A DNA stretch of 55,093 bases. It comes from Clostridiales bacterium. GTDB lineage: Bacteria; Bacillota; Clostridia; Peptostreptococcales; Natronincolaceae. The notes under the pieces are model-generated. The model did no database searches and was not told the DNA's origin. It saw only the letters and a list, made by a program, of their open reading frames with translations. The stretch spans positions 1 through 55,093 of the forward strand of contig JAAYPJ010000023.1 of the NCBI GenBank assembly GCA_012519835.1, in the 5' to 3' direction. Below are positions 42,427 to 54,709 of the stretch, one piece after another (within the stretch, counting starts at the first letter, position 1; each line of letters starts with the position of its first letter). A program made the translations under genes and the position numbers.

Positions 42427-42464
42427 ATAATATTCCCTCCCGCATATACACAGATACAAGATTA

Positions 42465-42512
42465 CAGATCCTTCGCGGTAACCGTTAATACTGTCCGTCT
42501 CAGGATGACAAA
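42465..42512 (+). repeat. dispersed intergenic repeat, family A, copy 6
   Basis: AGATCCTTCGCGG, a diverged middle, and CTGTCCGTCTCAGGATGACA. It lies just before the pgk ribosome binding site and so inside the likely pgk leader. Confidence 0.7.
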
Positions 42513-42641
42513 AAAGTATAAAATATACTTCCCCGCATAGTCTGTTATCTCCGCTGTGTCTTATTACTAAACTATCGTTATAACAATTAGTATGTATTAT
42601 TAGTCTGTTAGTATACACTGCCCATGAACGATTACCGAACA

Positions 42642-42696
42642 AACGATTGTTCAACGATTGTTCAACGATTGCTTAACTATTGTTCAACTATTGTTA
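42642..42696. repeat. five tandem 11-bp repeats upstream of pgk
   Basis: The unit AACGATTGTTC occurs at 42642 and 42653, then AACGATTGCTT (42664), AACTATTGTTC (42675) and AACTATTGTTA (42686), with a further related unit AACGATTACCG at 42627. The spacing is one helical turn, which would place the same base on one face of the DNA. It lies about 215-270 bases upstream of the pgk start. Confidence 0.8.
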
Positions 42697-42853
42697 TTTC
42701 CTATATGTTACCATATCTTAATATATAATTGAAACCTTTCTTGATGTAAAATAATTGTTGAGCGTATGTTTTCTATTTAAAACAACTATTTCTGATTGTT
42801 GTTTATTTCATAAATAGTTTATACCGATAACCTGGATTAACATCCCGACTATT

Positions 42854-42904
42854 AAAAATGCCCCTTTCTGTTTTTATCTAACCTCAGAAAGGAGCATTTT
42901 TTTT
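42854..42904. terminator. intrinsic terminator after the amidase gene
   Basis: AAAATGC-CCTTTCTG pairs with CAGAAAGG-GCATTTT across a 14-base loop. There is a T-run on both strands (eight T on plus, five on minus), so it may work in both directions. It begins 23 bases after the amidase stop. Confidence 0.8.
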
Positions 42905-42926
42905 ATGTCTATTTTATGTTATTTGG

Positions 42927-43835
42927 TTATATGGATTCGATCAACTGTTGTGTAGAAATCACGTACTTCGGGATCGCCGCCCTTACGGTTACCTTGGGAT
43001 CTACAACCTGGGATATTTTTAAATCAACCGATAGGCTTGCAAATACATATGCATCCTCCCACCCTATACCTAAGGAATCCTGAATATGCTTCACAGCTTG
43101 GCTTGCAGATTCGTATACCGCTTCCTCTAAATTATTACCTGAAGCAATTATCATAATATGTTCATCCGTTTCCACAAAGGGCCATTTGGTGGCTTTGCCC
43201 TTTAACAAACCAACTTCGAGGACTACCTCGGCGGGGATTTCAAGTCCGGTGAAACAGACTTCTCCATCCCCCATAACAGCATGGCAATCACCCAATGCCA
43301 ATAACGCGCCTTTTTGTCTGACAGGGAAATACAACGTAGAGCCGGCCTTAATGTCCGTGGTATCCATATTGCCGCCATGTTTCCATGGGCTATCTGTCGG
43401 CCATTCCCCATCCTCGTCTGCAGGTGCGACCCCTATTACGCCTATCATAGGTTTTATCGGCATTTTAATTCCGTGGAATACTGCTTGTCCATCTTCGATT
43501 TCTATAACCCTTATAACCGGTTTTGTAACTTGATCTCCCAGGGCCCCTTCGTTTGGGACAACAGCCACTACCCCCTTACTTTTTACATCGATGCTGATAA
43601 TCTTCAGTTTCAGCAGATCGCCCGGTTCGGCGCCTTCTATATATATGGGACCTGTGGCAGGATTCAATCTATCATAATCAATCTCCGCTAAGACTTGTTC
43701 CTCACTGGTTATTTGTTGATAAAAACAGTCATTTGTCTCCACTTTAATAACGTCACCCGGTGAAATCGTTTCTACTGCTTCCATGCTCGGTTTAAATTTG
43801 TAGATAACCTTATCTCCCGAAACCAGCTTCACCAT
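42927..43835 (-). CDS. acetamidase/formamidase family protein
   Basis: This 302-aa protein of the FmdA/AmdA family hydrolyses small amides such as formamide or acetamide to the acid and ammonia. Typical segments are ATGPIYIEGAEPGDLLKLKI, MIGVIGVAPA, HGGNMDTTDIKAGSTLYFPV and ALGDCHAVMGDGEVCFTGLE. I chose the ATG at 43835 because GGGGG lies five bases upstream. It is the last gene of the creatinase cluster, but a terminator-like hairpin stands between it and the symporter gene, so it may be only partly co-transcribed. Its substrate is unknown. It is not related to creatininase or to carbamoylsarcosine amidase by sequence motifs I can see. Confidence 0.85.
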   Translation of the reverse strand: MVKLVSGDKVIYKFKPSMEAVETISPGDVIKVETNDCFYQQITSEEQVLAEIDYDRLNPATGPIYIEGAEPGDLLKLKIISIDVKSKGVVAVVPNEGALGDQVTKPVIRVIEIEDGQAVFHGIKMPIKPMIGVIGVAPADEDGEWPTDSPWKHGGNMDTTDIKAGSTLYFPVRQKGALLALGDCHAVMGDGEVCFTGLEIPAEVVLEVGLLKGKATKWPFVETDEHIMIIASGNNLEEAVYESASQAVKHIQDSLGIGWEDAYVFASLSVDLKISQVVDPKVTVRAAIPKYVISTQQLIESI

Positions 43836-43887
43836 ATACACCCCCTACATTAAAAATTCAAAAGGCTTGTTGTAGCAATTAATTAGA

Positions 43888-43939
43888 ATCAGGGTTATCC
43901 CACCCCTTATGGGAATAGGCAGGATAACCCTGATCTTTT
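43888..43939. terminator. terminator-like hairpin between symporter and amidase genes
   Basis: ATCAGGGTTATCC pairs perfectly with GGATAACCCTGAT. Five T follow on the plus strand; on the minus strand the tail is TCTAATTAATT, a weaker terminator. It may reduce read-through into the amidase gene. Confidence 0.65.
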
Positions 43940-44015
43940 TGGTCATTTCCCCGTTGTCATCTATTTTTATTATGAATGAGTCGATAATTAAATTAATAAT
44001 ATATGCCCGAATTCT

Positions 44016-45482
44016 CTAACTGAGCCCTCCACTTGCCTCCAATTGCTCGGGTTTTCTGACCCCTCCATTGGTGACATATCCCATTATAACATATACTATG
44101 CATCCTGCTGCTCCGGCTATGAGTGGTATTTGAACCCAACCGAAGTTGGACCAAATTGCTAATATAACATTTCCGAAGAACCCGACAAGCATAGATACAA
44201 AGCAGGTACGCAGATCGGCCTCAATGAATACACGCATAATTGTCGGTGCCACAAAGGCGGATATCAGTCCACCTGTACCGATGTATGCTATATGGGTAAT
44301 CATTCCTTGAGGTGCAAAGAATGTCAGTATCAGCGTCCAAATAGTAGTAACCAATACCGCTAATCGGTTGAGCAAACTCGCATATTTTGATTCCCTGTTG
44401 GCAATGGATACAAACATATCGTAGGATAATGCGGAGGCTAAGGATTGCAACACCGAACTGACCGTTGAAAGCATTGCAAACAGGATAAACAACATTATCA
44501 TACCACCTATTGCGGGATGTAAGAAATCTTTTAGAAAAAGTGGCATTGCGCTATCGGCAATAGGCAGATTCGGATTCTTGTAATACATGTAAAGGCCGAC
44601 AAAGGGTGGAAGACTCAAAAGAAGTCCGTAAGGTGCTGTAATTAAAGCCATCACATGTATTTTTATATCATCCTTTAATGAAAGAAAACGTACCGACATA
44701 TAGGGTAGTACTGTGGTAAATAAGAGTGCATAAGGGAATACCAGCCATGCATTGAATTTGCCGACACCATAGGGGTCTGCAGTTGAAGGGTTGATGAATT
44801 CGGGATTCATCTGGGCAACCTTAGAAAGCAATTGTCCCATAGGAATATCCCTTATGATTACTACATATACAACTATTGAGGCTATCAACATCCCCATACA
44901 CATAATTGTATCTGTGACAGCAACAGCCAATAATCCGCCTTGCATTGTGAATATAACAACAACTGCCAATAGTATCAAAGATCCGGCCAATTGGCTGATA
45001 CCAAGCCATTCCGATGCTATAAGACCTACCGCCCTGATTTGACCTATCATATAAACTGAAAGGAAGACAAAGGTGGCCAGGCCGGCAAAAAAGTGAACCA
45101 ATCTTTTTTGATTGCTTGTACCCCTATGAGTTGATGCCAAATAATGCGGAATTGTCAGTCCACCGTGTTTTGCCGCTTGTTTACGCATGTAGTTCGCAAA
45201 CAACAAAACACCAAAGGTTATTGCAGGGGCGTAAAAGTAATTTGCAAATATTTCAATCGTGCCATAGGCATAAGTAGCCCCGGGAGAACCTATAAATCCC
45301 CATCCGCTAAAACCTGTTGCCATAAGTGTACCTGCTCCTACAAAAGCGCCTACCTGTTTTGCCGCCAGTAAAAATCCTTCACCACTGGATGTTTGGGTCC
45401 TTTCAACTATTCTGCGTGTGATTTCACCGACAACAATTAAACCGACTGAAGCCAATATAAATATTATCCAGTTTGGATTCAT
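44016..45482 (-). CDS. sodium:solute symporter (SSS family), probable creatine/sarcosine uptake
   Basis: This 488-aa protein has about 13 membrane helices and the SSS-type core (GTLMATGFSGWGFIGSPGATY and QGGLLAVAVTDTIMCMGMLI). SSS proteins import small solutes with Na+. The ATG overlaps the stop of the 46-aa accessory peptide gene in ATGA, so the two are translationally coupled. Substrate is inferred only from its place in an apparent operon with creatinase: creatine is most likely, and sarcosine or betaine-like compounds are alternatives. Confidence 0.88.
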   Translation of the reverse strand: MNPNWIIFILASVGLIVVGEITRRIVERTQTSSGEGFLLAAKQVGAFVGAGTLMATGFSGWGFIGSPGATYAYGTIEIFANYFYAPAITFGVLLFANYMRKQAAKHGGLTIPHYLASTHRGTSNQKRLVHFFAGLATFVFLSVYMIGQIRAVGLIASEWLGISQLAGSLILLAVVVIFTMQGGLLAVAVTDTIMCMGMLIASIVVYVVIIRDIPMGQLLSKVAQMNPEFINPSTADPYGVGKFNAWLVFPYALLFTTVLPYMSVRFLSLKDDIKIHVMALITAPYGLLLSLPPFVGLYMYYKNPNLPIADSAMPLFLKDFLHPAIGGMIMLFILFAMLSTVSSVLQSLASALSYDMFVSIANRESKYASLLNRLAVLVTTIWTLILTFFAPQGMITHIAYIGTGGLISAFVAPTIMRVFIEADLRTCFVSMLVGFFGNVILAIWSNFGWVQIPLIAGAAGCIVYVIMGYVTNGGVRKPEQLEASGGLS

Positions 45483-45619
45483 TTAACATCACCTCTCTTT
45501 TTCTTAAATACTTCTTCGTACAAAACTATAACGATCGGAATAACAAAGAGAGCAACGGTTACGTATATAAATGAATCCATAGTCCAGGAACCTGTTAACA
45601 TGGTAGTCCAAGAATCCAT
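45479..45619 (-). CDS. 46-aa single-helix peptide, putative symporter small accessory protein
   Basis: This small gene starts MDSWTTMLTGSWTMDSF, runs through one membrane helix (about residues 16-34, YVTVALFVIPIVIVLY) and ends with a positively charged tail (FKKKRGDVK). AGGAGG lies six bases before the ATG, and its TGA overlaps the start of the symporter gene. One-helix proteins of this kind are known partners encoded before SSS and NSS symporters. It is too short for most gene callers. Position, ribosome site and overlap make it very likely real; its partnership with the symporter is inference from context. Confidence 0.85.
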   Translation of the reverse strand: MDSWTTMLTGSWTMDSFIYVTVALFVIPIVIVLYEEVFKKKRGDVK

Positions 45620-45770
45620 TGCATTACCTCCTTAAATTTTAATCCAGATTATTGTAAATCGTCAAGTAACCCGCGGGTTGCCTATTTATTCTGCTAATGA
45701 CTATCTGATTTTTTGCGCGCTAACCTCAATAATGGCATATGCTTGTGTGTAAAATCAACAATATAGATAA

Positions 45771-47009
45771 TTATCTTTTGATTATATTGTGTTCGGGTCC
45801 ATACGGGAATTTTGTTACATTTTCAGTTTCGCCGTTTTCATGAATGATTAGTATATCATGCTCACGATATCCGCCGGCTCCCGGCTGTCCATTCGGTATC
45901 AAAATCATCGGTTCCATTGAGATTGTCATACCCGGTTCAAATACGGTGTCTATATCCTCACGAAGCTCTAATCCTGCTTCCCGTCCATAATAGTGGGACA
46001 GTATTCCAAATGAATGGCCATAACCGAATGTACGATTTGACAATACACCATAGCCCCTATATATTTCATTTAATTCGTTGGCTATATCTTTGCATACGGC
46101 ACCGGGCTTAACCAGCTTTGCTCCGGCTTCGAGAACCTCAACGTTAATGTTCCAGTATTTCAGCGATGCTTCATCAACATCCTGGAAGAATAGGGTCCTT
46201 TCCAGGGCGGTGTAATATCCGGCTATCATAGCAAAGGTATTCAGATTTAAAACATCCCCCGGTTGAATTTTTCTGGTTGTAGGCCAGGTATGGGCCCCAT
46301 CCGTGTTCATTCCGGACTGGAACCAAACCCAGGAATCTCTAAGGTCCAGATGTGGATACAATTTGGCTATTTCACGGGTCATGGCTTCCGTACCTGCAAG
46401 GGCAACCTCATATTCAGGCACTCCTTCGGCTATCGCTTCGGCTACCGCATATCCGCCGACGTCACAAACCCTTGCGCCGTTTGTAATTAAATCCAACTCC
46501 TCTTTTGATTTAACCATTCTGAATTTCATTAAATCAAAAGCAACATCAACAAATTCAAATTCCGGGAATGAAATCTCGAGTTGTTTGCGTATACTGAGAG
46601 TAACAAAATCATACTCAATTCCCAGGCGTCCTTTTGTAATACCTGCATCTTTCAGTACTGTTTGCACAGCATAGAAAAAGTTGTCCCTTCTCCAGTCTGT
46701 ATGCGCTATGTTGTCGCCGAAGCTTCTCCTCCATGGCATTCCGCCATCAACATTGGGTGTTATGGTTACATGTTTATCCTGTGTCACAAGCAAACCGGTA
46801 TGTCTGCCAAAGGAAGTGTATAGGTAGCCGCTGTAGTAATTAACGTTATGATACGAGGTGAATAATACCGCATCGATGTCTTTTTCCCCCATGTAGTTAC
46901 GTAGTTTGGTATTTCTGTTTGTCATTTCTTCCTTAGAAAAAACGGGTTTTTCCTTTTCGCCAATCCTAATAATTTTTGTCCTTTCAAGACCGTCCAAAAA
47001 CTCCGACAT
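45771..47009 (-). CDS. creatinase (creatine amidinohydrolase, M24 fold)
   Basis: This 412-aa protein is of the pita-bread (M24) fold. Creatinase hydrolyses creatine to sarcosine and urea without a metal. The residues known from the Pseudomonas putida enzyme line up at a constant offset: F67 and R69 (YTSFGRH; carboxylate binding), catalytic H240 (MNTDGAH), E270 (YTALERTLFF), R343 (YGREAGLELRED) and E366 (SMEPMI). The long strings TSYHNVNYYS, WRRDNFF and PGAGGYREHDILI also match my memory of creatinases. I chose the ATG at 47009 because GGGGGAG lies five bases upstream. The frame is open up to 47069, but that part is leader RNA. It is the first gene of the sigma-54-type operon. Confidence 0.87.
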   Translation of the reverse strand: MSEFLDGLERTKIIRIGEKEKPVFSKEEMTNRNTKLRNYMGEKDIDAVLFTSYHNVNYYSGYLYTSFGRHTGLLVTQDKHVTITPNVDGGMPWRRSFGDNIAHTDWRRDNFFYAVQTVLKDAGITKGRLGIEYDFVTLSIRKQLEISFPEFEFVDVAFDLMKFRMVKSKEELDLITNGARVCDVGGYAVAEAIAEGVPEYEVALAGTEAMTREIAKLYPHLDLRDSWVWFQSGMNTDGAHTWPTTRKIQPGDVLNLNTFAMIAGYYTALERTLFFQDVDEASLKYWNINVEVLEAGAKLVKPGAVCKDIANELNEIYRGYGVLSNRTFGYGHSFGILSHYYGREAGLELREDIDTVFEPGMTISMEPMILIPNGQPGAGGYREHDILIIHENGETENVTKFPYGPEHNIIKR

Positions 47010-47153
47010 TTTTTCTCCCCCTTTGTTTTGAAATAAATTTTCCAACACCTGCTGCCAAGCAATTGCCATGCGAAGGAATTAACAAAATATAAAATTCCTA
47101 AAATTCCTTCGCCCCTCGTAATAACGTAACAAGACTACCTGCAATTATAATTG

Positions 47154-47169
47154 TGCAATTATCGTGCCA
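47154..47169 (-). promoter_or_regulatory. sigma-54 (-24/-12) promoter of the creatinase operon
   Basis: On the minus strand the sequence is TGGCACGATAATTGCA, identical to the consensus TGGCACG-N4-TTGCA, with GG and GC separated by ten bases. The predicted start of transcription is near 47143, giving a leader of about 134 bases. The upstream part of the 384-base gap (47170-47290) should hold activator sites; AAAATT...AATTTT near 47206-47226 is a weak dyad. The genes for sigma-54 and a sigma-54 activator lie directly upstream. Confidence 0.85.
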
Positions 47170-47290
47170 AAGTCCCTTGCCATAAAAAATCTATATTATT
47201 ATTTCAAAATTCAGGAGATAAATTTTAGGATTATAGGGCCCTCATAGCAACAACAGTCATATATTGTTTCTTGGTTACAAAAAATTACAC

Positions 47291-47326
47291 AATAATTAAC
47301 TCCCTCTTAAAAGGGAGTTAATTATT
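47291..47326. terminator. terminator after the sigma-54 activator gene
   Basis: A perfect 15-bp stem (AATAATTAACTCCCT and its complement) closes a 6-base loop, 68 bases past the activator stop. It isolates the creatinase operon from upstream transcription. Confidence 0.75.
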
Positions 47327-47393
47327 TTATTTATATCAAACAAATTTGGAATCTTTCAACACAATGTAAGGAATTTTGTCCTCCGGAAGGAAT

Positions 47394-48854
47394 TTATTCC
47401 TCATCGAATTGTAGCTTGGTTCCCCATGCCTTAAATTTTTTACGTATGGTACTTGCATCTATCCCCAATATATCCGCCATTTCAGAAGTACTTTTGCACC
47501 CCTTCATAACCCTGATAAGCAAATTTTTCTCATAACTCCTAAGCGATTCCTTGTAGTTTATATTTTCCAATGTTTGGTTTATATAACTTTTATCCAGGAG
47601 AAAGTCTATTCCATTGTTTATTAAGTCCTCAACCTCGATACATTCCCCTCCTGAGGTTACAACAAGTCTTTCAATCATGTTTTCAAGTTCTCTTATATTC
47701 CCCGGCCAGTCATGTTTTATCAACAATCTGGTTACCTCAGGTGTAAATTTTTTATTGAAACCGAACTTTTTATTGTAATGATCCAACAAAACTAGGATAA
47801 GACCGGGTATATCCTCTTTTCTTTCTCTGAGCGGAGGAATAACAATTGGTATTACATTTAGCCTGTAATATAAATCCTCCCTGAATTTTTTCTGATTCAC
47901 CATTTCTTCTAAATCTCTATTGGTTGCGGCGATAATTCTTATGTCTACATCGACGGGCTCCTTGCCCCCTATTGGCATTATTTTTCTGTCTTGTATAACA
48001 CGAAGAAGTTTAACCTGCAAATCTAGTGGAAGTTCCCCTATTTCGTCTAAAAATAGGGTACCTGTATTAGCAAGTTCAATTAATCCGACCTTGCCGCCAC
48101 TGTTGGCCCCCGTAAAGGATCCTTTTTTATATCCAAACAGTTCCGATTCGAGCAACTTTTCCGGTATTGCACCACAATCTATTTTTATAAAGGGTTTGGT
48201 AGTCCTCAGACTATTCCTATGGATTATCTCTGTCAGCAATCCCTTACCGACACCTGATTCACCCTGTATTAATACAGTAGAATCCACCGACGCAACCCTG
48301 ACAGCTAAGTCTATCACCCTTTTCATCTTGGGGCTACTGGTTATCATTCCCTTGTTTTCCAACTGATTTTTTCTGAGGTGTTCTAATTCCTCCTCATATA
48401 TATCTTTTATATATTTAATTTCACCCAAACTCTTTTTTAGGTTGGTGATTTCAGTAATATCCCTTGCTATTGCTATTGTACGAAAAATTTTACCGTCCTT
48501 AAATATTGGGGTGCCTGTGGCCAATAAATCCCTGCCGTTTACCCTCTGAATCATAGTAACAGGTGCCCCTCGTTCCAGACATTCAATAGTTACGGACTCC
48601 GAATAAATGCCTTCCTTCACCAGCTCCCTCATATTTTTGCCAATGGTATCCTCCGCCCTGATTCCATCAATTATTTCACACATTCTATTAAACCGCACCG
48701 TAACCCCGTCCGGGTCCGAAATATGGATCCCAATGCTGGCCGTATCCATAATAGCATTAAGCTCACATTCCAGTTCCGCGTTTTTGCTTTCTAATTTATT
48801 TATAATTTCATTCAATTCCTCATTGGACATGTTTCTAATTTCAGCAATTTCCAC
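47394..48854 (-). CDS. PAS-AAA+-Fis sigma-54-dependent transcription activator
   Basis: This 486-aa protein has an N-terminal coiled segment (about 1-35), a PAS domain (about 36-145), a linker helix, the AAA+ domain (about 165-395) and a C-terminal Fis-type helix-turn-helix (STSEMADILGIDASTIRKKF). Walker A is GESGVGKG, the sigma-54 contact loop is GSFTGA (a known variant of GAFTGA), and GTLFLDEIGELP is Walker B. Such proteins bind upstream DNA and use ATP to open sigma-54 promoters. The PAS domain suggests a small ligand or redox signal; creatine or sarcosine is a reasonable guess. The start is a GTG with AAGGGGG ten bases upstream. It lies between rpoN and the creatinase operon. Confidence 0.92.
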   Translation of the reverse strand: MEIAEIRNMSNEELNEIINKLESKNAELECELNAIMDTASIGIHISDPDGVTVRFNRMCEIIDGIRAEDTIGKNMRELVKEGIYSESVTIECLERGAPVTMIQRVNGRDLLATGTPIFKDGKIFRTIAIARDITEITNLKKSLGEIKYIKDIYEEELEHLRKNQLENKGMITSSPKMKRVIDLAVRVASVDSTVLIQGESGVGKGLLTEIIHRNSLRTTKPFIKIDCGAIPEKLLESELFGYKKGSFTGANSGGKVGLIELANTGTLFLDEIGELPLDLQVKLLRVIQDRKIMPIGGKEPVDVDIRIIAATNRDLEEMVNQKKFREDLYYRLNVIPIVIPPLRERKEDIPGLILVLLDHYNKKFGFNKKFTPEVTRLLIKHDWPGNIRELENMIERLVVTSGGECIEVEDLINNGIDFLLDKSYINQTLENINYKESLRSYEKNLLIRVMKGCKSTSEMADILGIDASTIRKKFKAWGTKLQFDEE

Positions 48855-48923
48855 CTAGCTACAACCCCCTTAATATTTCAACAATATTCTGATAAAGCTT
48901 ACATGGGATTTCATAAACTCCTG

Positions 48924-50321
48924 CTAAATACAATACCTTTTTCTTTTTGAAGATGGTGGTATATCCAGCTCACTTCTATATTTGGCTATGGTTCTTCTGG
49001 ATATGTTTATACCTTTATTTTTTAGCTCATTTGCTATTTTTTCATCGCTCAGAGGTTTTTTACAGTCCTCTTTGTTGACTATATTTTTAATAAAAGTCTT
49101 TATATTCCTTGCGGAAATTTCTTCACCTGAATCCTTTCTAAATCCACCGGAAAAGAAATATTTTAACTCAAACATACCGAAAGATGTACTCATATATTTT
49201 CCGTTTGTAGCCCTACTGACCGTCGATTCATGGATCCCAATTTCATCCGCAACCTCTTTCAGCGTCATAGGTTTCAGGTATCTCCTCCCGTTTTCAAAGA
49301 AAGCACTCTGTTTTTTTACTATTGTTTCGCATACTCTATGAATTGTTCTTTTTCTTTGCTCAATGCTTTTTATCAGCCAAACCGCAGAATTAAACTGCGC
49401 ATTCAAAAATTTATTGACATCAGAATTCTCATCGCCTGAAGCCATCATCTTCTTATAATCATTACGTATAACTAATCCCAAGCCACCATAATCATTATCT
49501 AATGTTATATATTCTTTTCCGATTTTCCTGACTATAACATCGGGAATAATGTACCTATTTTGACTGCATGCGAAATTTCTGCCCGGCCTTGGTTCCAATT
49601 TCTTTATAAAATCACAATAACCCTGAACCTTTTTCAAGGTTGTCCCTAGTTGTCTGGCAATATAAGGATATCTGTTTGAAGCAATGTCAGACAAGTGTTT
49701 CTCCACCAGGGCATAAATTTTTCTGTCTTTTATGTCTAACAAACGTAGTTGAATCAATAGGCATTCTTCCAACGTTCTTGCGCCCACACCGGGAGGATCA
49801 AGAGTCTGAATTACCTGCAAAATATTTTCAACAATAGATTGCTCCTGATTAAAACAAGCTGCAATCTCTTCAACAGTGGCCATAAGGTAACCCCTATCGT
49901 CTATGCTGTTTATTATATATTCTCCAATTTTAATATGTTTCTTATCTGCCATAGTCAGGTTATATTGGAATAACAAATGCTCCTGCAATGTAGTCTCTTT
50001 TGAAACAACATTCTCAAAGTTAAATTCATTACCCTCATTATAGTAGGCACCCTTTGTATATTCAAAATTATTAAAATCTTCGGTATATTCCTTCCAGTCA
50101 ATTCCTTTTATCCTGTCTTTTTCAGATTCTATATCTAACAGATATTCATCTTCAACAGTTTCTTCCATTTTTTCTAATATCGGATTCATTTCTAACTGCT
50201 CGTTGATGTATTCTTCCAACTCCAAAGGGGTGAACTGTAATATTTGAATTGCCTGTTGTAACTGAGGAGTCATAACCAATTTTTGTGATTGTTCTAATTG
50301 TGGACTAAACCCTATTTCTAT
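48924..50321 (-). CDS. rpoN: RNA polymerase sigma-54 factor
   Basis: This protein of about 465 aa is sigma-54. The N-terminal activator-interacting region is FSPQLEQSQKLVMTPQLQQAIQILQ, then the core-binding region, the helix-turn-helix (TLKEVADEIGIHESTVSRATNGKYM) and the RpoN box (ISRRTIAKYR). The start codon is unusual. GGGGG lies eight bases before an ATA (50319-50321), where the protein would begin like family members; the nearest in-frame alternatives are a GTG at 50330, inside that ribosome site, and an ATG at 50351 without one. It precedes the PAS-AAA+ activator gene and follows grdD across a terminator. Confidence 0.92.
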   Translation of the reverse strand: MEIGFSPQLEQSQKLVMTPQLQQAIQILQFTPLELEEYINEQLEMNPILEKMEETVEDEYLLDIESEKDRIKGIDWKEYTEDFNNFEYTKGAYYNEGNEFNFENVVSKETTLQEHLLFQYNLTMADKKHIKIGEYIINSIDDRGYLMATVEEIAACFNQEQSIVENILQVIQTLDPPGVGARTLEECLLIQLRLLDIKDRKIYALVEKHLSDIASNRYPYIARQLGTTLKKVQGYCDFIKKLEPRPGRNFACSQNRYIIPDVIVRKIGKEYITLDNDYGGLGLVIRNDYKKMMASGDENSDVNKFLNAQFNSAVWLIKSIEQRKRTIHRVCETIVKKQSAFFENGRRYLKPMTLKEVADEIGIHESTVSRATNGKYMSTSFGMFELKYFFSGGFRKDSGEEISARNIKTFIKNIVNKEDCKKPLSDEKIANELKNKGINISRRTIAKYRSELDIPPSSKRKRYCI

Positions 50322-50419
50322 AAGAACCACCCCCGAATGATATAATAACATCTGACTTTATTGTACCATCTAATTTAAATCTAATAAAGTACCCGGGGGT
50401 TTTTACTAAAATTGGCATA

Positions 50420-50487: not shown

Positions 50488-51657
50488 CTACAGATATCCT
50501 GCTGCCTTGATTGCCTCGGTTGCTGCTTCTATTTTTTCTTCATTTACCAACACCACAGGACCGGTACAACCCATTCCGCCTTCAGCGTAAATTCCCACTT
50601 TCCAAACTGCTATAACAGCATCATCTATGTCTAGAACGTCTATGCCGGAAATCTCTCCTGTTACAATCTCTGCAGGAGGTGCTTCTACCTTTTCTTCAGC
50701 TTTAGGTTTGTCAGCTTCCATCAGACCGTCTATAATACCGTCTAAACCGGCCTTTCTGGCTGCTGCAAATTCTGCCTTTACAACCTCTTTTATGTTACCT
50801 AACGCAAGTTCGCCGGCAAATTGTAACGCACCTGCGGCAACCGGTGAGCCTGATGCCCTTGATAGAATCAGTACTACTCTATCGTAACCATCGCCACCTA
50901 CGCCGGGTCCGTATCCAAACCCTGCTGCTTCGTAACTTCCACCTGTAGCATAGGAAGAGAATACCTTCATCAGAATGTTTCCTGTAAGCGTATCTTGTAC
51001 CATTATATCAGGAGTTCCTGCAAGAAGGTCGTTACCTCTCATTACAACTCCACCGTCTGCCCTCATAGATTCTGCAAAGTTTATTTTGTATCCGTTTTCA
51101 CTAAGTGTTCTTAAGGTCCTCTCTACGGTTCTTGCACCGTCAACATTCAGAAGTCCTACAGTAGGTTCTTCTTTTCCAATAGCCTTCGCTACAGCAATAC
51201 CACATATCGCGTTCTTAACCATAGCTACTATTCTATGTGAGGCCGTTGACCCTGTAGTAGAAGCTAAAATCATTTCCCTACCCTTAGCCGGCGTAACAAC
51301 TCTACCGATAGTTGCAACCCCTATCGGGAAAGGATAATGTGCTGTAACACAAGCCTGTATATATCCGCTGTCTAAAAGTTCTTCCATTTTTTTATGAGCT
51401 TCATCCTCATTGTTAGCTTCTGCTATTTCAAGATCCGTATCCATGTCCTTAGGTCCGATTAGTACAATGTCATACCCTTTTGCAACCCTGGATGCTATTT
51501 CGGCGCCTCTGACCAGATTTTCAACTCCATGCTCATTACCTACAGTGGTAATACCTACTTTGACTTTTTTGCCAAAGTCGCCTGTTTCTATACCGTCCGC
51601 TATGTCATTCAATACCCTGCTTACCATATCCCTAACGACTTTATTGTCTTCAGCCAT
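50488..51657 (-). CDS. grdD: glycine/sarcosine/betaine reductase complex component C, alpha subunit
   Basis: This 389-aa subunit of protein C takes the carboxymethyl group from selenoprotein A and releases acetyl phosphate with GrdC. The conserved Cys that carries the acetyl thioester lies near residue 364 in GGMGCTGPVVL. The central part resembles phosphate acetyltransferase/PlsX-like proteins (LLNVDGARTVERTL, GTPDIMVQDTLTGNILMKVFSSY). It lies 14 bases after grdC and ends the operon. Protein C serves the glycine, sarcosine and betaine reductases alike. Confidence 0.93.
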   Translation of the reverse strand: MAEDNKVVRDMVSRVLNDIADGIETGDFGKKVKVGITTVGNEHGVENLVRGAEIASRVAKGYDIVLIGPKDMDTDLEIAEANNEDEAHKKMEELLDSGYIQACVTAHYPFPIGVATIGRVVTPAKGREMILASTTGSTASHRIVAMVKNAICGIAVAKAIGKEEPTVGLLNVDGARTVERTLRTLSENGYKINFAESMRADGGVVMRGNDLLAGTPDIMVQDTLTGNILMKVFSSYATGGSYEAAGFGYGPGVGGDGYDRVVLILSRASGSPVAAGALQFAGELALGNIKEVVKAEFAAARKAGLDGIIDGLMEADKPKAEEKVEAPPAEIVTGEISGIDVLDIDDAVIAVWKVGIYAEGGMGCTGPVVLVNEEKIEAATEAIKAAGYL

Positions 51658-51671
51658 TAATGTTCACCCCC

Positions 51672-53213
51672 TTATTCTACTGATAAGTGCGATGCGAAAC
51701 CTCTTATTGCCTCAGCTATCATGGATTTTATTTCTTCTTCGGAAACTCCTACGGCTTCTGCTTCACCCTCACCGGTGTTTTGTTCCATAATTATGGATAC
51801 ACCGTCAAATAAGTTTGTCATTCTACCAAGGAACAAGCTTCCTTTTCCGATAATCATGGCTCTGTTTATGTTACCTTCTTTAAGGTCTTCTATAGCAAAT
51901 CCCATATATGGAACTCCTGAAGGTATATGTCCTTGTGTAGGAGCCCAACCCGGCATACCGAATTCATCGGCAAAAGTGCCCACTGCTGCTCTGTCTAAAT
52001 CGCCTTTCTTAACTCCCAATGCCGCGATCATCTTATAGTTAGCTTCCGGAACGTCTCCCGCTCCTGCAGGTTTTGTAATATCCGGATTTTGCATTTCAGC
52101 TGAATATTTATTCACATCAGTTATCTTGAGTCCGCCTCTTTCTAAAGGTTCGGTAACCAAGGATGAAATAACTGCCTGTGGAGAAGAACCCGTACCTACA
52201 GTGTGCTTACCTACAAGATCAGATCTGAGTATAGGACTGACGCCGTCATCGTCACCAATCAATATGGCAAATCCGGCCACAACGTCTTCCAATATAGGTA
52301 TGTCTTGTCTTACGTGGTCTTTACCGTTCATTCCAAGCTTTGCAGTCGCACCGCCGGCTACAATAACCACATTTTTATATGTGCCTGAGCGTACTAATGC
52401 GGCAGCTTCGATCAAAGCATGGACAGGAGCGGCACAAAATCCTCTGGTATCGGAACCTGATGCATTTACGGCTCCCACTTGTTCTGCTACAGCTTTTGCA
52501 AAGTTTCCTCCGCCCCTTTGGTTCATATCCCCGCAGGCTTCTTCGGAACACTCTATAACATAATCAACTATAGCCGGGTCAATATCATTTTTGTGTAAAA
52601 GTTGCAAGAAAGCCAATACAGCCGAGGCTTTAGATGCTATGTTCTCAAGCATTACGTGAGCACTCAGGTTTACGTCTATAGCATGCGCCCTCTTAACACA
52701 ACCCACAATTTCATTGTCATGATATAATGCCTCTGCACCTTGTTCCTCGATAAGTTTATTAATGGCATCGGCATCATCGCCATCCTTTAATCTGCCTACC
52801 ATGTCTTCGGTTACTAAAGGATAAGCAGCTATTTTATCTTTTATTGCAGCTGTGAAATCCTTGCTTAGCGAAACCAGATCAAAGGAGTCAACTATTTTCA
52901 TAAATCCAATAAATTCGTCCTGTGGAGTAATCTCGCCAAGTTTACCGTCTCTTTCCGCGCCTTCTACTTTTTTGTCATACCATGGTGCCTCATAATTTTT
53001 TAATTCTTCGGGCCTCAATGAACCTATATAAACCTGGTTCGGAGGATAAGCTACAACATCCTCATAACTACGCAAACTTTCCGGAACCTTTTTTAGATAT
53101 TCAGAGTCCGGATTTACCACCATTTCGGTTGTTTGTGTAGTACCATTATAAAAAACCATGTCCGGTGTATGCACAAGAACATACCCGGCAGCCTTTGCTA
53201 CAGCATACGACAT
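51672..53213 (-). CDS. grdC: glycine/sarcosine/betaine reductase complex component C, beta subunit
   Basis: This 513-aa subunit has a ketoacyl synthase III-like C-terminal half (DTRGFCAAPVHALIEAAALVRSG, WAPTQGHIPSGVPYMGFA) and begins SYAVAKAAGYVLVHTPDMV, as in known GrdC. Together with GrdD it forms acetyl phosphate, which yields ATP. I chose the ATG at 53213 because GGGGG lies eight bases upstream; an in-frame ATG at 53228 lies before that site. A 28-bp palindrome stands in the 182-base gap to grdB. Confidence 0.94.
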   Translation of the reverse strand: MSYAVAKAAGYVLVHTPDMVFYNGTTQTTEMVVNPDSEYLKKVPESLRSYEDVVAYPPNQVYIGSLRPEELKNYEAPWYDKKVEGAERDGKLGEITPQDEFIGFMKIVDSFDLVSLSKDFTAAIKDKIAAYPLVTEDMVGRLKDGDDADAINKLIEEQGAEALYHDNEIVGCVKRAHAIDVNLSAHVMLENIASKASAVLAFLQLLHKNDIDPAIVDYVIECSEEACGDMNQRGGGNFAKAVAEQVGAVNASGSDTRGFCAAPVHALIEAAALVRSGTYKNVVIVAGGATAKLGMNGKDHVRQDIPILEDVVAGFAILIGDDDGVSPILRSDLVGKHTVGTGSSPQAVISSLVTEPLERGGLKITDVNKYSAEMQNPDITKPAGAGDVPEANYKMIAALGVKKGDLDRAAVGTFADEFGMPGWAPTQGHIPSGVPYMGFAIEDLKEGNINRAMIIGKGSLFLGRMTNLFDGVSIIMEQNTGEGEAEAVGVSEEEIKSMIAEAIRGFASHLSVE

Positions 53214-53315
53214 AAACGACACCCCCAAAAAAATTTTTATCCTAGTACACTATATACTTAATACATATACCTATTATTCATATTTTAAACATATATTTAT
53301 ACATTTATATATTCA

Positions 53316-53343: not shown

Positions 53344-53395
53344 CAATTGGTATTTGTTATCTTAAGTGTGTATTGTCTTTAAATGTAACGAAACC

Positions 53396-54709
53396 TTAGA
53401 ATGCTTCGAATACTTCCTGTCCGTCAACTTCTGTTGATAAGGCTTCTAGTGCTTTTTCTACAAGTCTTCTTCTTAATGCTTTTTCTTCAACAGGATCTAA
53501 AGCCGGATTTCCTAGTGGATGTGGAATAGCGATTGTAGGTACTATTCTGTTAGCTCCAACTGTTAATGAGATAGGCACAATTGTACACATATGTACTACA
53601 GGAATGCCTGCTCTTTCAACTTCTTTTACTAGTGTTGCTCCGCAACGTGTACAGGTACCTCATGTTGAAGTAGTTATAACTGCATCAACACCGTCAGCTA
53701 CCAGTTCTTTTGCGAAAGCTTCGGCATACTTCTTAGCACTTGCAACAGCTGTACCGTTTCCAACTGTAGCGTAGTAAATGTTATGCAATGAGCCAATCTT
53801 GCCTTCTTTTTCTAGGTCTCTTAATACGTCTACCGGAAGTACTCTGTTAGGATCTGCATTGGCATATACCGGGTCATATCCACCATGAGCGGTTTCATGA
53901 GTTTCTGATGTTAATACATCAAATCCGGAAATATCATATCTTCCATATTTGGATGCACTTGAAGATTCGATTTTATCAGGATTGCCCTTAGGAACAATAC
54001 CACCGGATGTTACTAAACCAATTTTTGCCTTGGTTATATCTTTTACAGCCGGGTTCGGGAATACCCTGTCGAATGCAGGCATCGGATACTCGGTTACAAA
54101 CTCTTCGCCTTTCAGCTTTTTGATAAGCATGTCAACAGCTCTTTTTGAGCCTCTTTCTTCAGCAAAGTAGTTTACCCTAATACCTCTTTCCATGTAATTA
54201 TCTTCGTCAGGTGTTCCGATTTCTTCACCTTTTAATAATTTAAGAGCAAGTGATGTAAGTGCAGGTATAGCTTGCCCCATAGTAGCAGCCGAGTTACCGG
54301 TCTTTACAATATATACATCGGATTTATACATATCAGCACCCGGGTTCTCTACATACATAGCTGTTACAGCAGGGATACCTAATTTTTCGCTCACTGCCTT
54401 TGTTACCGCACCGGCAGCAACTCCGTATCTACCAGCGTTAAATGCAGGACCTGCTATGAAAAGATCTGGATTGTATTTTTCAACCATTTCAAGTACCGCA
54501 GCTTCAGCTTCTTCCAAATGTTCGTTGAAATAGGTGTCACCGCAGATAACTGTTGCTATAATTTCAGCGTTATCTCCTAATGCCGCATTTAAGCCTATCC
54601 CAGGACCTACTACTCCTTCTCTTACTTCAGGCTTATGATCAGCTTTTTCTTCTCCACCGATTCCAGCGAAAAACTGATTTATATAATGAACAACTTTTTT
54701 CTTGCTCAT
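53396..54709 (-). CDS. grdB: glycine reductase component B, selenoprotein subunit (GrdB)
   Basis: This 437-aa protein has an in-frame UGA at 53660-53662, read as selenocysteine 350 in TTST-U-GTCTRCG. Protein B activates the substrate amine and hands the carbon to GrdA. The N-terminal part carries VVHYINQFFAGIGGEEKAD and IAGPAFNAGRYGVAAG; after the UGA come VVHMCTIVPISLTVGANRIVP and HPLGNPALDPVEEKALRRRL. A caller that stops at UGA would give two pieces of 349 and 64-87 aa. The substrate-specific paralogs GrdF (sarcosine) and GrdH (betaine) are very similar, so glycine is favoured by the grdA-B-C-D order and my memory of the sequence, not proven. Confidence 0.93.
53634..53646 (-). promoter_or_regulatory. 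candidate SECIS hairpin of grdB
   Basis: Starting 14 bases after the UGA, GTTGC-GGA-GCAAC forms a 5-bp stem with a three-base loop in the mRNA. Bacterial SECIS elements sit at about this distance. It is small, and clostridial SECIS elements are poorly conserved, so this is a candidate only. Confidence 0.45.

Follow-up and report, generated by a model that had tools for sequence, protein, structure and literature searches.

The physiology of anaerobic creatine fermentation has been familiar for decades. The locus described here raises the question of which gene cleaves creatine in such anaerobes, and whether it lies with the reductase genes that would use the product. We analysed 55,093 nucleotides of a Clostridiales bacterium (family Natronincolaceae; assembly GCA_012519835.1, contig JAAYPJ010000023.1), hereafter referred to as the window. 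Tissierella creatinophila converts creatine anaerobically to sarcosine and then to acetate and methylamine, and its genome paper reports that genes for creatine amidinohydrolase or creatine reductase were not detected (PMC5364220). That genome has two creatininase genes and a sarcosine reductase and no reported creatinase, the reverse of the genome studied here (PMC5364220). A paper on the Pseudomonas putida creatinase lists Clostridium among the creatinase producers, citing a physiology paper from 1992 (PMC5650733).

Table 1. Features of the creatinase locus and the neighbouring grd genes, by position in the window.
Feature	Coordinates	Strand	Evidence
Acetamidase/formamidase-family protein	42927..43841	-	PF03069 128 bits; putative acetamidase 2f4l 1e-72
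Sodium:solute symporter	44016..45482	-	PF00474 115 bits
46-aa hydrophobic protein	45479..45619	-	Sequence reading; own ribosome-binding site, overlaps symporter start
Very likely creatinase (creatine amidinohydrolase), 412 aa	45771..47009	-	phmmer, active-site residues, tree, Foldseek
11-bp perfect inverted repeat GCGAAGGAATT/AATTCCTTCGC	47070..47112	-	Leader, between promoter and start codon
Sigma-54 (-24/-12) promoter TGGCACGATAATTGCA	47154..47169	-	Exact motif, 145 bases upstream of creatinase start
Terminator-like hairpin	47291..47326	-	Between activator gene and creatinase promoter
PAS sigma-54-dependent activator without receiver domain	47394..48854	-	Sigma54_activat 235 bits, PAS_9, HTH (Pfam)
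rpoN (sigma-54)	48924..50351	-	TIGR02395 461 bits
grdD, reductase component C alpha	50488..51657	-	NF040747 565 bits
grdC, reductase component C beta	51672..53228	-	NF040746 807 bits
grdB, glycine-type selenoprotein B, Sec at residue 350 (in-frame TGA)	53395..54709	-	TIGR01917 761 bits
SECIS element for grdB	53622..53659	-	Rfam RF01990 44.5 bits
grdA, cut by contig end	54774..55091	-	NF040748 matched from model position 44

The initial annotation gave no strand for the gene. The plus strand of the gene region carries many stop codons, and the intact reading frame lies on the minus strand. The start codon at 47009 has a strong Shine-Dalgarno sequence (aaagggggagaaaaaATG), and a longer alternative frame from 47069 has none. 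Pfam assigned Creatinase_N and Peptidase_M24 domains. Because these domains alone cannot tell a creatinase from a prolidase, we relied on a phmmer comparison with all solved structures. The P. putida creatinase 1CHM matched with 539 bits (E 6e-161; 60% identity over 397 residues), and the creatine amidinohydrolases 1CHM, 7YTO and 1KP0 together spanned 525-539 bits. The best other M24 matches were prolidases at 80 bits, and an ectoine hydrolase reached 52 bits. Identity to the organism's own other M24 peptidase is 23%. Over its full length, the protein is nearer to creatinases (EC 3.5.3.3) than to any M24 peptidase.

The initial annotation had listed six residues important in creatinase as kept (F67, R69, H240, E270, R343 and E366), and all are present. 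They are invariant in every aligned creatinase that covers each position, the P. putida (1CHM) and Alcaligenes (7YTO) enzymes among them, whereas neither the organism's own M24 peptidase nor either of two prolidase-type proteins has F67, R69 or E270. In our alignment the six correspond to positions 61, 63, 231, 261, 334 and 357 of the 1CHM chain as indexed there, which we take to be residues 62, 64, 232, 262, 335 and 358 in the usual numbering; the roles of F, R, H, E, R and E in catalysis and substrate binding are presumably those given for the P. putida enzyme in the 1CHM literature. The protein has the catalytic histidine and the substrate residues of a creatinase. The five metal-ligand positions, which read D, D, H, E, E in M24 peptidases, are N257, A268, H332, E366 and H384, identical in other creatinases. 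H332 and E366 are kept and the ligands D, D and E are lost, so that the dinuclear metal site of M24 peptidases and prolidases is gone, as in every creatinase of the alignment. One feature counts against creatine hydrolysis: the residue adjoining the catalytic H240 is T241, where N is nearly universal in the alignment.

Phylogeny and predicted fold agree with this assignment. In a maximum-likelihood tree of 30 proteins, none of them DddP, the window protein falls among creatinases and not prolidases, the placement that the initial annotation had proposed to check. It forms one clade with two Peptoclostridium proteins (support 99/97). Its sister group (98/98) consists of actinobacterial creatinases, from Arthrobacter and from a GC-rich sequence of faecal origin related to it, and peptidases lie outside the creatinase clade (100/99). 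No DddP entry occurred among the 60 PDB matches listed. The AlphaFold model is of moderate confidence (pLDDT 78, shallow alignment; low at residues 232-239 and 328-352, which are active-site loops). The top Foldseek matches of this model were all creatinases, with TM scores of 0.86-0.87 compared with 0.6-0.7 for prolidases.

Two other identities were weighed. That the protein is a generic M24 peptidase, an ectoine hydrolase or a DddP-like enzyme is scarcely credible: the Pfam domain names and the RefSeq labels of its homologues do read M24 metallopeptidase, but a gap of 450 bits separates it from any peptidase or ectoine hydrolase, and the lost metal ligands and the position in the tree point the same way. 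Scores, residues and tree effectively refute these readings; with the models for the ectoine hydrolase DoeA the protein reached 76 and 75 bits, against NCBIfam cut-offs of 575-613. An enzyme acting mainly on another guanidino compound, such as guanidinoacetate, is quite improbable. The unusual T241 beside the catalytic histidine would fit such a substrate, as would a relative of the neighbouring symporter encoded near an amidinotransferase that would make guanidinoacetate; against it, all direct substrate-contact residues of the P. putida creatinase are identical and overall identity to the solved creatinases is 60%. The claim that this is a true creatinase is thus strongly supported. The window gene very likely encodes a genuine creatinase, and its product very likely converts creatine to sarcosine and urea. 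It is a new member of a known family, an ordinary enzyme in an informative setting.

Read along the minus strand, that setting begins with grdA (cut), grdB, grdC, grdD, rpoN, the PAS activator, the hairpin, the promoter and the creatinase gene. The 46-aa protein, the symporter, the formamidase-family gene and a pgk-tpi-gpm-eno run follow. The promoter is the only exact match to the sigma-54 motif in the window, where 0.03 would be expected. With a -24/-12 promoter and an adjacent gene for an enhancer-binding protein, the arrangement has the marks of a sigma-54-dependent operon, and the whole is likely a sigma-54-driven creatine cassette. We regard the PAS protein as a candidate regulator. A homologue (76%) occurs in the one genus-mate searched; we rejected that genome as an outgroup for gain of the cassette because the homologue lies at a contig end, so that the absence of a creatinase there is uninformative. 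In Clostridioides, grdGF is under sigma-54 control by SarR (PMC6615313). This is a similar case of a sigma-54 activator and sarcosine metabolism in a Stickland clostridium, although creatinase is not mentioned there.

The genes downstream of the creatinase received assignments of different strength. The symporter is a candidate creatine importer and belongs to an uncommon family: at E < 1e-100 it turned up in a single genome of the 291 from the class, that of the window itself. The plasmid collection contained one relative, a Photobacterium protein (41%), and ~1.7 kb downstream of it lies a homologue of arginine:glycine amidinotransferase, a weak hint of guanidino-compound transport. The 46-aa protein, for which Pfam gave no match, is possibly an accessory subunit. 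We found no support for the formamidase-family protein as a urea hydrolase, and a review notes that urea inhibits the FmdA enzyme of M. methylotrophus (PMC10781810). In base composition the cassette does not stand out clearly as foreign.

The initial annotation placed the gene in an anaerobic Stickland fermenter, about 4 kb from a selenium-dependent grd operon. The selenocysteine-containing glycine reductase genes bear out the first point, and the distance is 3.5 kb, measured between the grdD end at 50488 and the creatinase start at 47009, a gap filled by rpoN and the sigma-54 activator. With TGA read as selenocysteine, GrdB has 437 aa. It scored 761 bits with the glycine GrdB model (cut-off 602) and 725 with the GrdF model, below the cut-off of 800, compared with 858 bits for the P. 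acidaminophilum GrdF (NCBIfam). It is 72-78% identical to the GrdB of many family and order members, and the family shares this operon, without creatinase. A grdE fragment on another contig, C119, is 84% identical to the GrdE of relatives and 65% to GrdG. Model scores and the identity to widespread glycine GrdB led us to reject the operon as a sarcosine reductase. The glycine-type call rests on scores and identities and not on tree rooting, because a quick GrdB tree had weak deep support and placed GrdF inside the clostridial set.

The grd operon is split over the window contig, which ends inside grdA (55091), and C119 (L022, 3977-4352), which holds grdX and the first 125 grdE codons before it ends; ~1 kb is missing between them. 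The genome comprises 159 contigs and is reported to be 99.88% complete, with contig breaks inside grdE and grdA. PF07355 and PF09338 occur once each. Searches of these fragmented 159 contigs found no second GrdB or second GrdE/G, no sarcosine-specific GrdF/GrdG, no creatininase and no urease alpha subunit. Elsewhere, a gammaproteobacterial megareplicon, of Photobacterium sp. DA100 (L030, 1787-2607) carries two tandem grdA genes beside grdC, grdD, grdE/G and a TGA-containing grdB.

We compared the gene with creatinases elsewhere. The closest match is WP_242842524.1 of Peptoclostridium acidaminophilum (72% identity), encoded on the 808-kb megaplasmid EAL2_808p (NZ_CP007453.1, 763273-764511; L020, 20001-21239). 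Its sequence identifies it as a creatinase, which the RefSeq label "M24 family metallopeptidase" hides. In searches that covered 98 relatives, 391 genomes of the class and 394 of the order, genes similar at E < 1e-60 occur only in two Peptoclostridium genomes and the window genome. The P. acidaminophilum gene order is a sensor kinase with a solute-binding domain, a sigma-54 response regulator, grdG, grdF, a BCCT transporter, the creatinase and grdA; in a congener the available contig shows this order up to the creatinase. The congener has an exact sigma-54 promoter before grdG and P. acidaminophilum a version with one mismatch. The two settings share a clade, an order of Clostridia and a nearby sigma-54 regulator, whereas only the Peptoclostridium creatinase is flanked by sarcosine-reductase genes. 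A dedicated locus joining creatinase to sarcosine reductase, as anticipated in the initial annotation, is not evident in the window, its grd operon being of glycine type, and is present in its nearest relative, where grdG and grdF lie in one cluster with the creatinase. The regulators also differ (a two-component sensor and response regulator versus the PAS activator), as do the transporters, BCCT versus sodium symporter; the difference in transporter family counts against the explanation that we favour below. The P. acidaminophilum genome paper (PMC4056300) names the sarcosine reductase clusters and not the creatinase. An earlier report of this gene elsewhere is possible.

Creatinases of the P. 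putida (1CHM) and Alcaligenes/Actinobacillus (7YTO, 1KP0) type resemble the window protein at ~60% identity over the full length, with the same active site and the same loss of metal ligands. Their hosts are aerobes or facultative bacteria, in which the genes tend to accompany those for creatininase and sarcosine oxidase, and other creatinases occur beside creatininase, sarcosine oxidase and transporter genes. The window gene differs in its sigma-54 promoter and in belonging to a Stickland anaerobe, in whose genome no creatininase was found. A creatinase-like gene was also present in 420 plasmid records, 264 of them from Klebsiella and 103 from Acinetobacter, and its usual label was M24 metallopeptidase or aminopeptidase P. 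Conjugative or mobilizable plasmids are numerous among these, and the few genes examined (e.g., L073, L074 and L036) group with creatinases. The record MT836898.1 (L076), which comes from human faeces and is titled "Bacteriophage sp." and marked unverified, is a GC-rich, actinobacterial-looking stretch. It carries a creatinase gene and genes resembling those for sarcosine oxidase, BCCT transporters and creatininase. Its putative BCCT transporter, an ORF read by eye, precedes the creatininase-like and creatinase genes and matches the Peptoclostridium BCCT. We rejected a phage origin of this creatinase, which groups with Arthrobacter in a stretch of that composition.

How far the closeness of creatinase and grd genes reflects function depends on what the ancestral order was. 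One relative (L068) has grdE-A-B-C-D, further genes, rpoN, cggR, gapA and pgk, with cggR, gapA and the glycolytic genes named from sequence, and in another (L071) rpoN directly follows grdD, with pgk further on. The five-gene cassette thus holds the cggR-gapA position, and proximity of grd and rpoN is probably ancestral, so that the nearness of the window creatinase to grd is weaker functional evidence than it looks, and the Peptoclostridium cluster is stronger. Neither cggR nor gapA, which lie between rpoN and pgk in L068, is present at 42430-48924 of the window.

The explanation that we favour as a whole, with a probability of roughly 0.86, combines these elements. A metal-independent creatine amidinohydrolase would hydrolyse creatine to sarcosine and urea. 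Its gene would be the first of a sigma-54-dependent operon with the 46-aa membrane protein, the symporter and perhaps the formamidase-family gene, and the PAS-type enhancer-binding protein, whose gene lies immediately upstream, is its probable activator. Creatine probably enters through the sodium symporter. Sarcosine would then be disposed of in Stickland metabolism, as electron acceptor or by export, and urea would be excreted. Since no creatininase and no urease were found, creatine itself rather than creatinine is the compound expected to be taken up, and urea should be left over. The enzyme family, active site, promoter motif, gene order and kinship to the Peptoclostridium creatinase are read from the DNA itself; catalysis in vivo, the symporter substrate, the regulator ligand and the reduction of sarcosine we infer from them.

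The fate of sarcosine separates two further explanations. A complete creatine-to-sarcosine-reductase pathway may or may not exist in this organism. GrdF/GrdG, creatininase and urease were not found, so that the assembly contains only part of the downstream pathway, a point against the favoured explanation. It is a serious possibility, a little short of an even chance, that the creatinase is real and its nearness to grd incidental, a mobile creatine cassette having settled between rpoN and pgk, with sarcosine exported or otherwise used. The orders of L071 and L068, both without creatinase, the glycine-type GrdB and GrdE, the creatinase's own promoter and upstream terminator, and the single GrdB and single GrdE/G of the genome all favour this. 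The same gene nevertheless sits inside the sarcosine reductase cluster of Peptoclostridium, and since contig breaks fall exactly within grdE and grdA, the assembly could lack a second grd locus. A sarcosine reductase (GrdF/GrdG) might instead reside in such unassembled sequence, completing a Stickland pathway from creatine to methylamine and acetyl-phosphate as in Peptoclostridium. We hold this to be slightly less probable. The clusters around the closest creatinases and the contig ends inside grd genes are consistent with it, and in a cell that has no urease one would expect sarcosine to be what is useful in creatine; but the genome is reported to be nearly complete, and no GrdF/GrdG fragment appeared beyond one N-terminus, of GrdE type by its identities.

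A broader view, which we consider unlikely, takes the cassette for a creatine module that is self-contained and spreads horizontally. Its sigma-54 activator, creatinase, small membrane protein, sodium symporter and amidase-family enzyme would enable an anaerobe with a small genome and a glycine reductase to subsist on creatine from a host. The amidase-family protein would then process the urea or an amide formed from creatine, and sarcosine would go to an unusual reductase. Genomes of the window genus are ~1.6 Mb, compared with 2.7-5.4 Mb for most other sampled family members.

Under the favoured explanation of a sigma-54-controlled creatinase operon, kinship with the Peptoclostridium genes points to a missing gene for anaerobic creatine breakdown. 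The clade formed by the window and the two Peptoclostridium genomes would provide a testable gene for the anaerobic creatine-cleaving step together with a sigma-54 regulatory context, and may serve as a marker for spotting creatine-using anaerobes in metagenomes.
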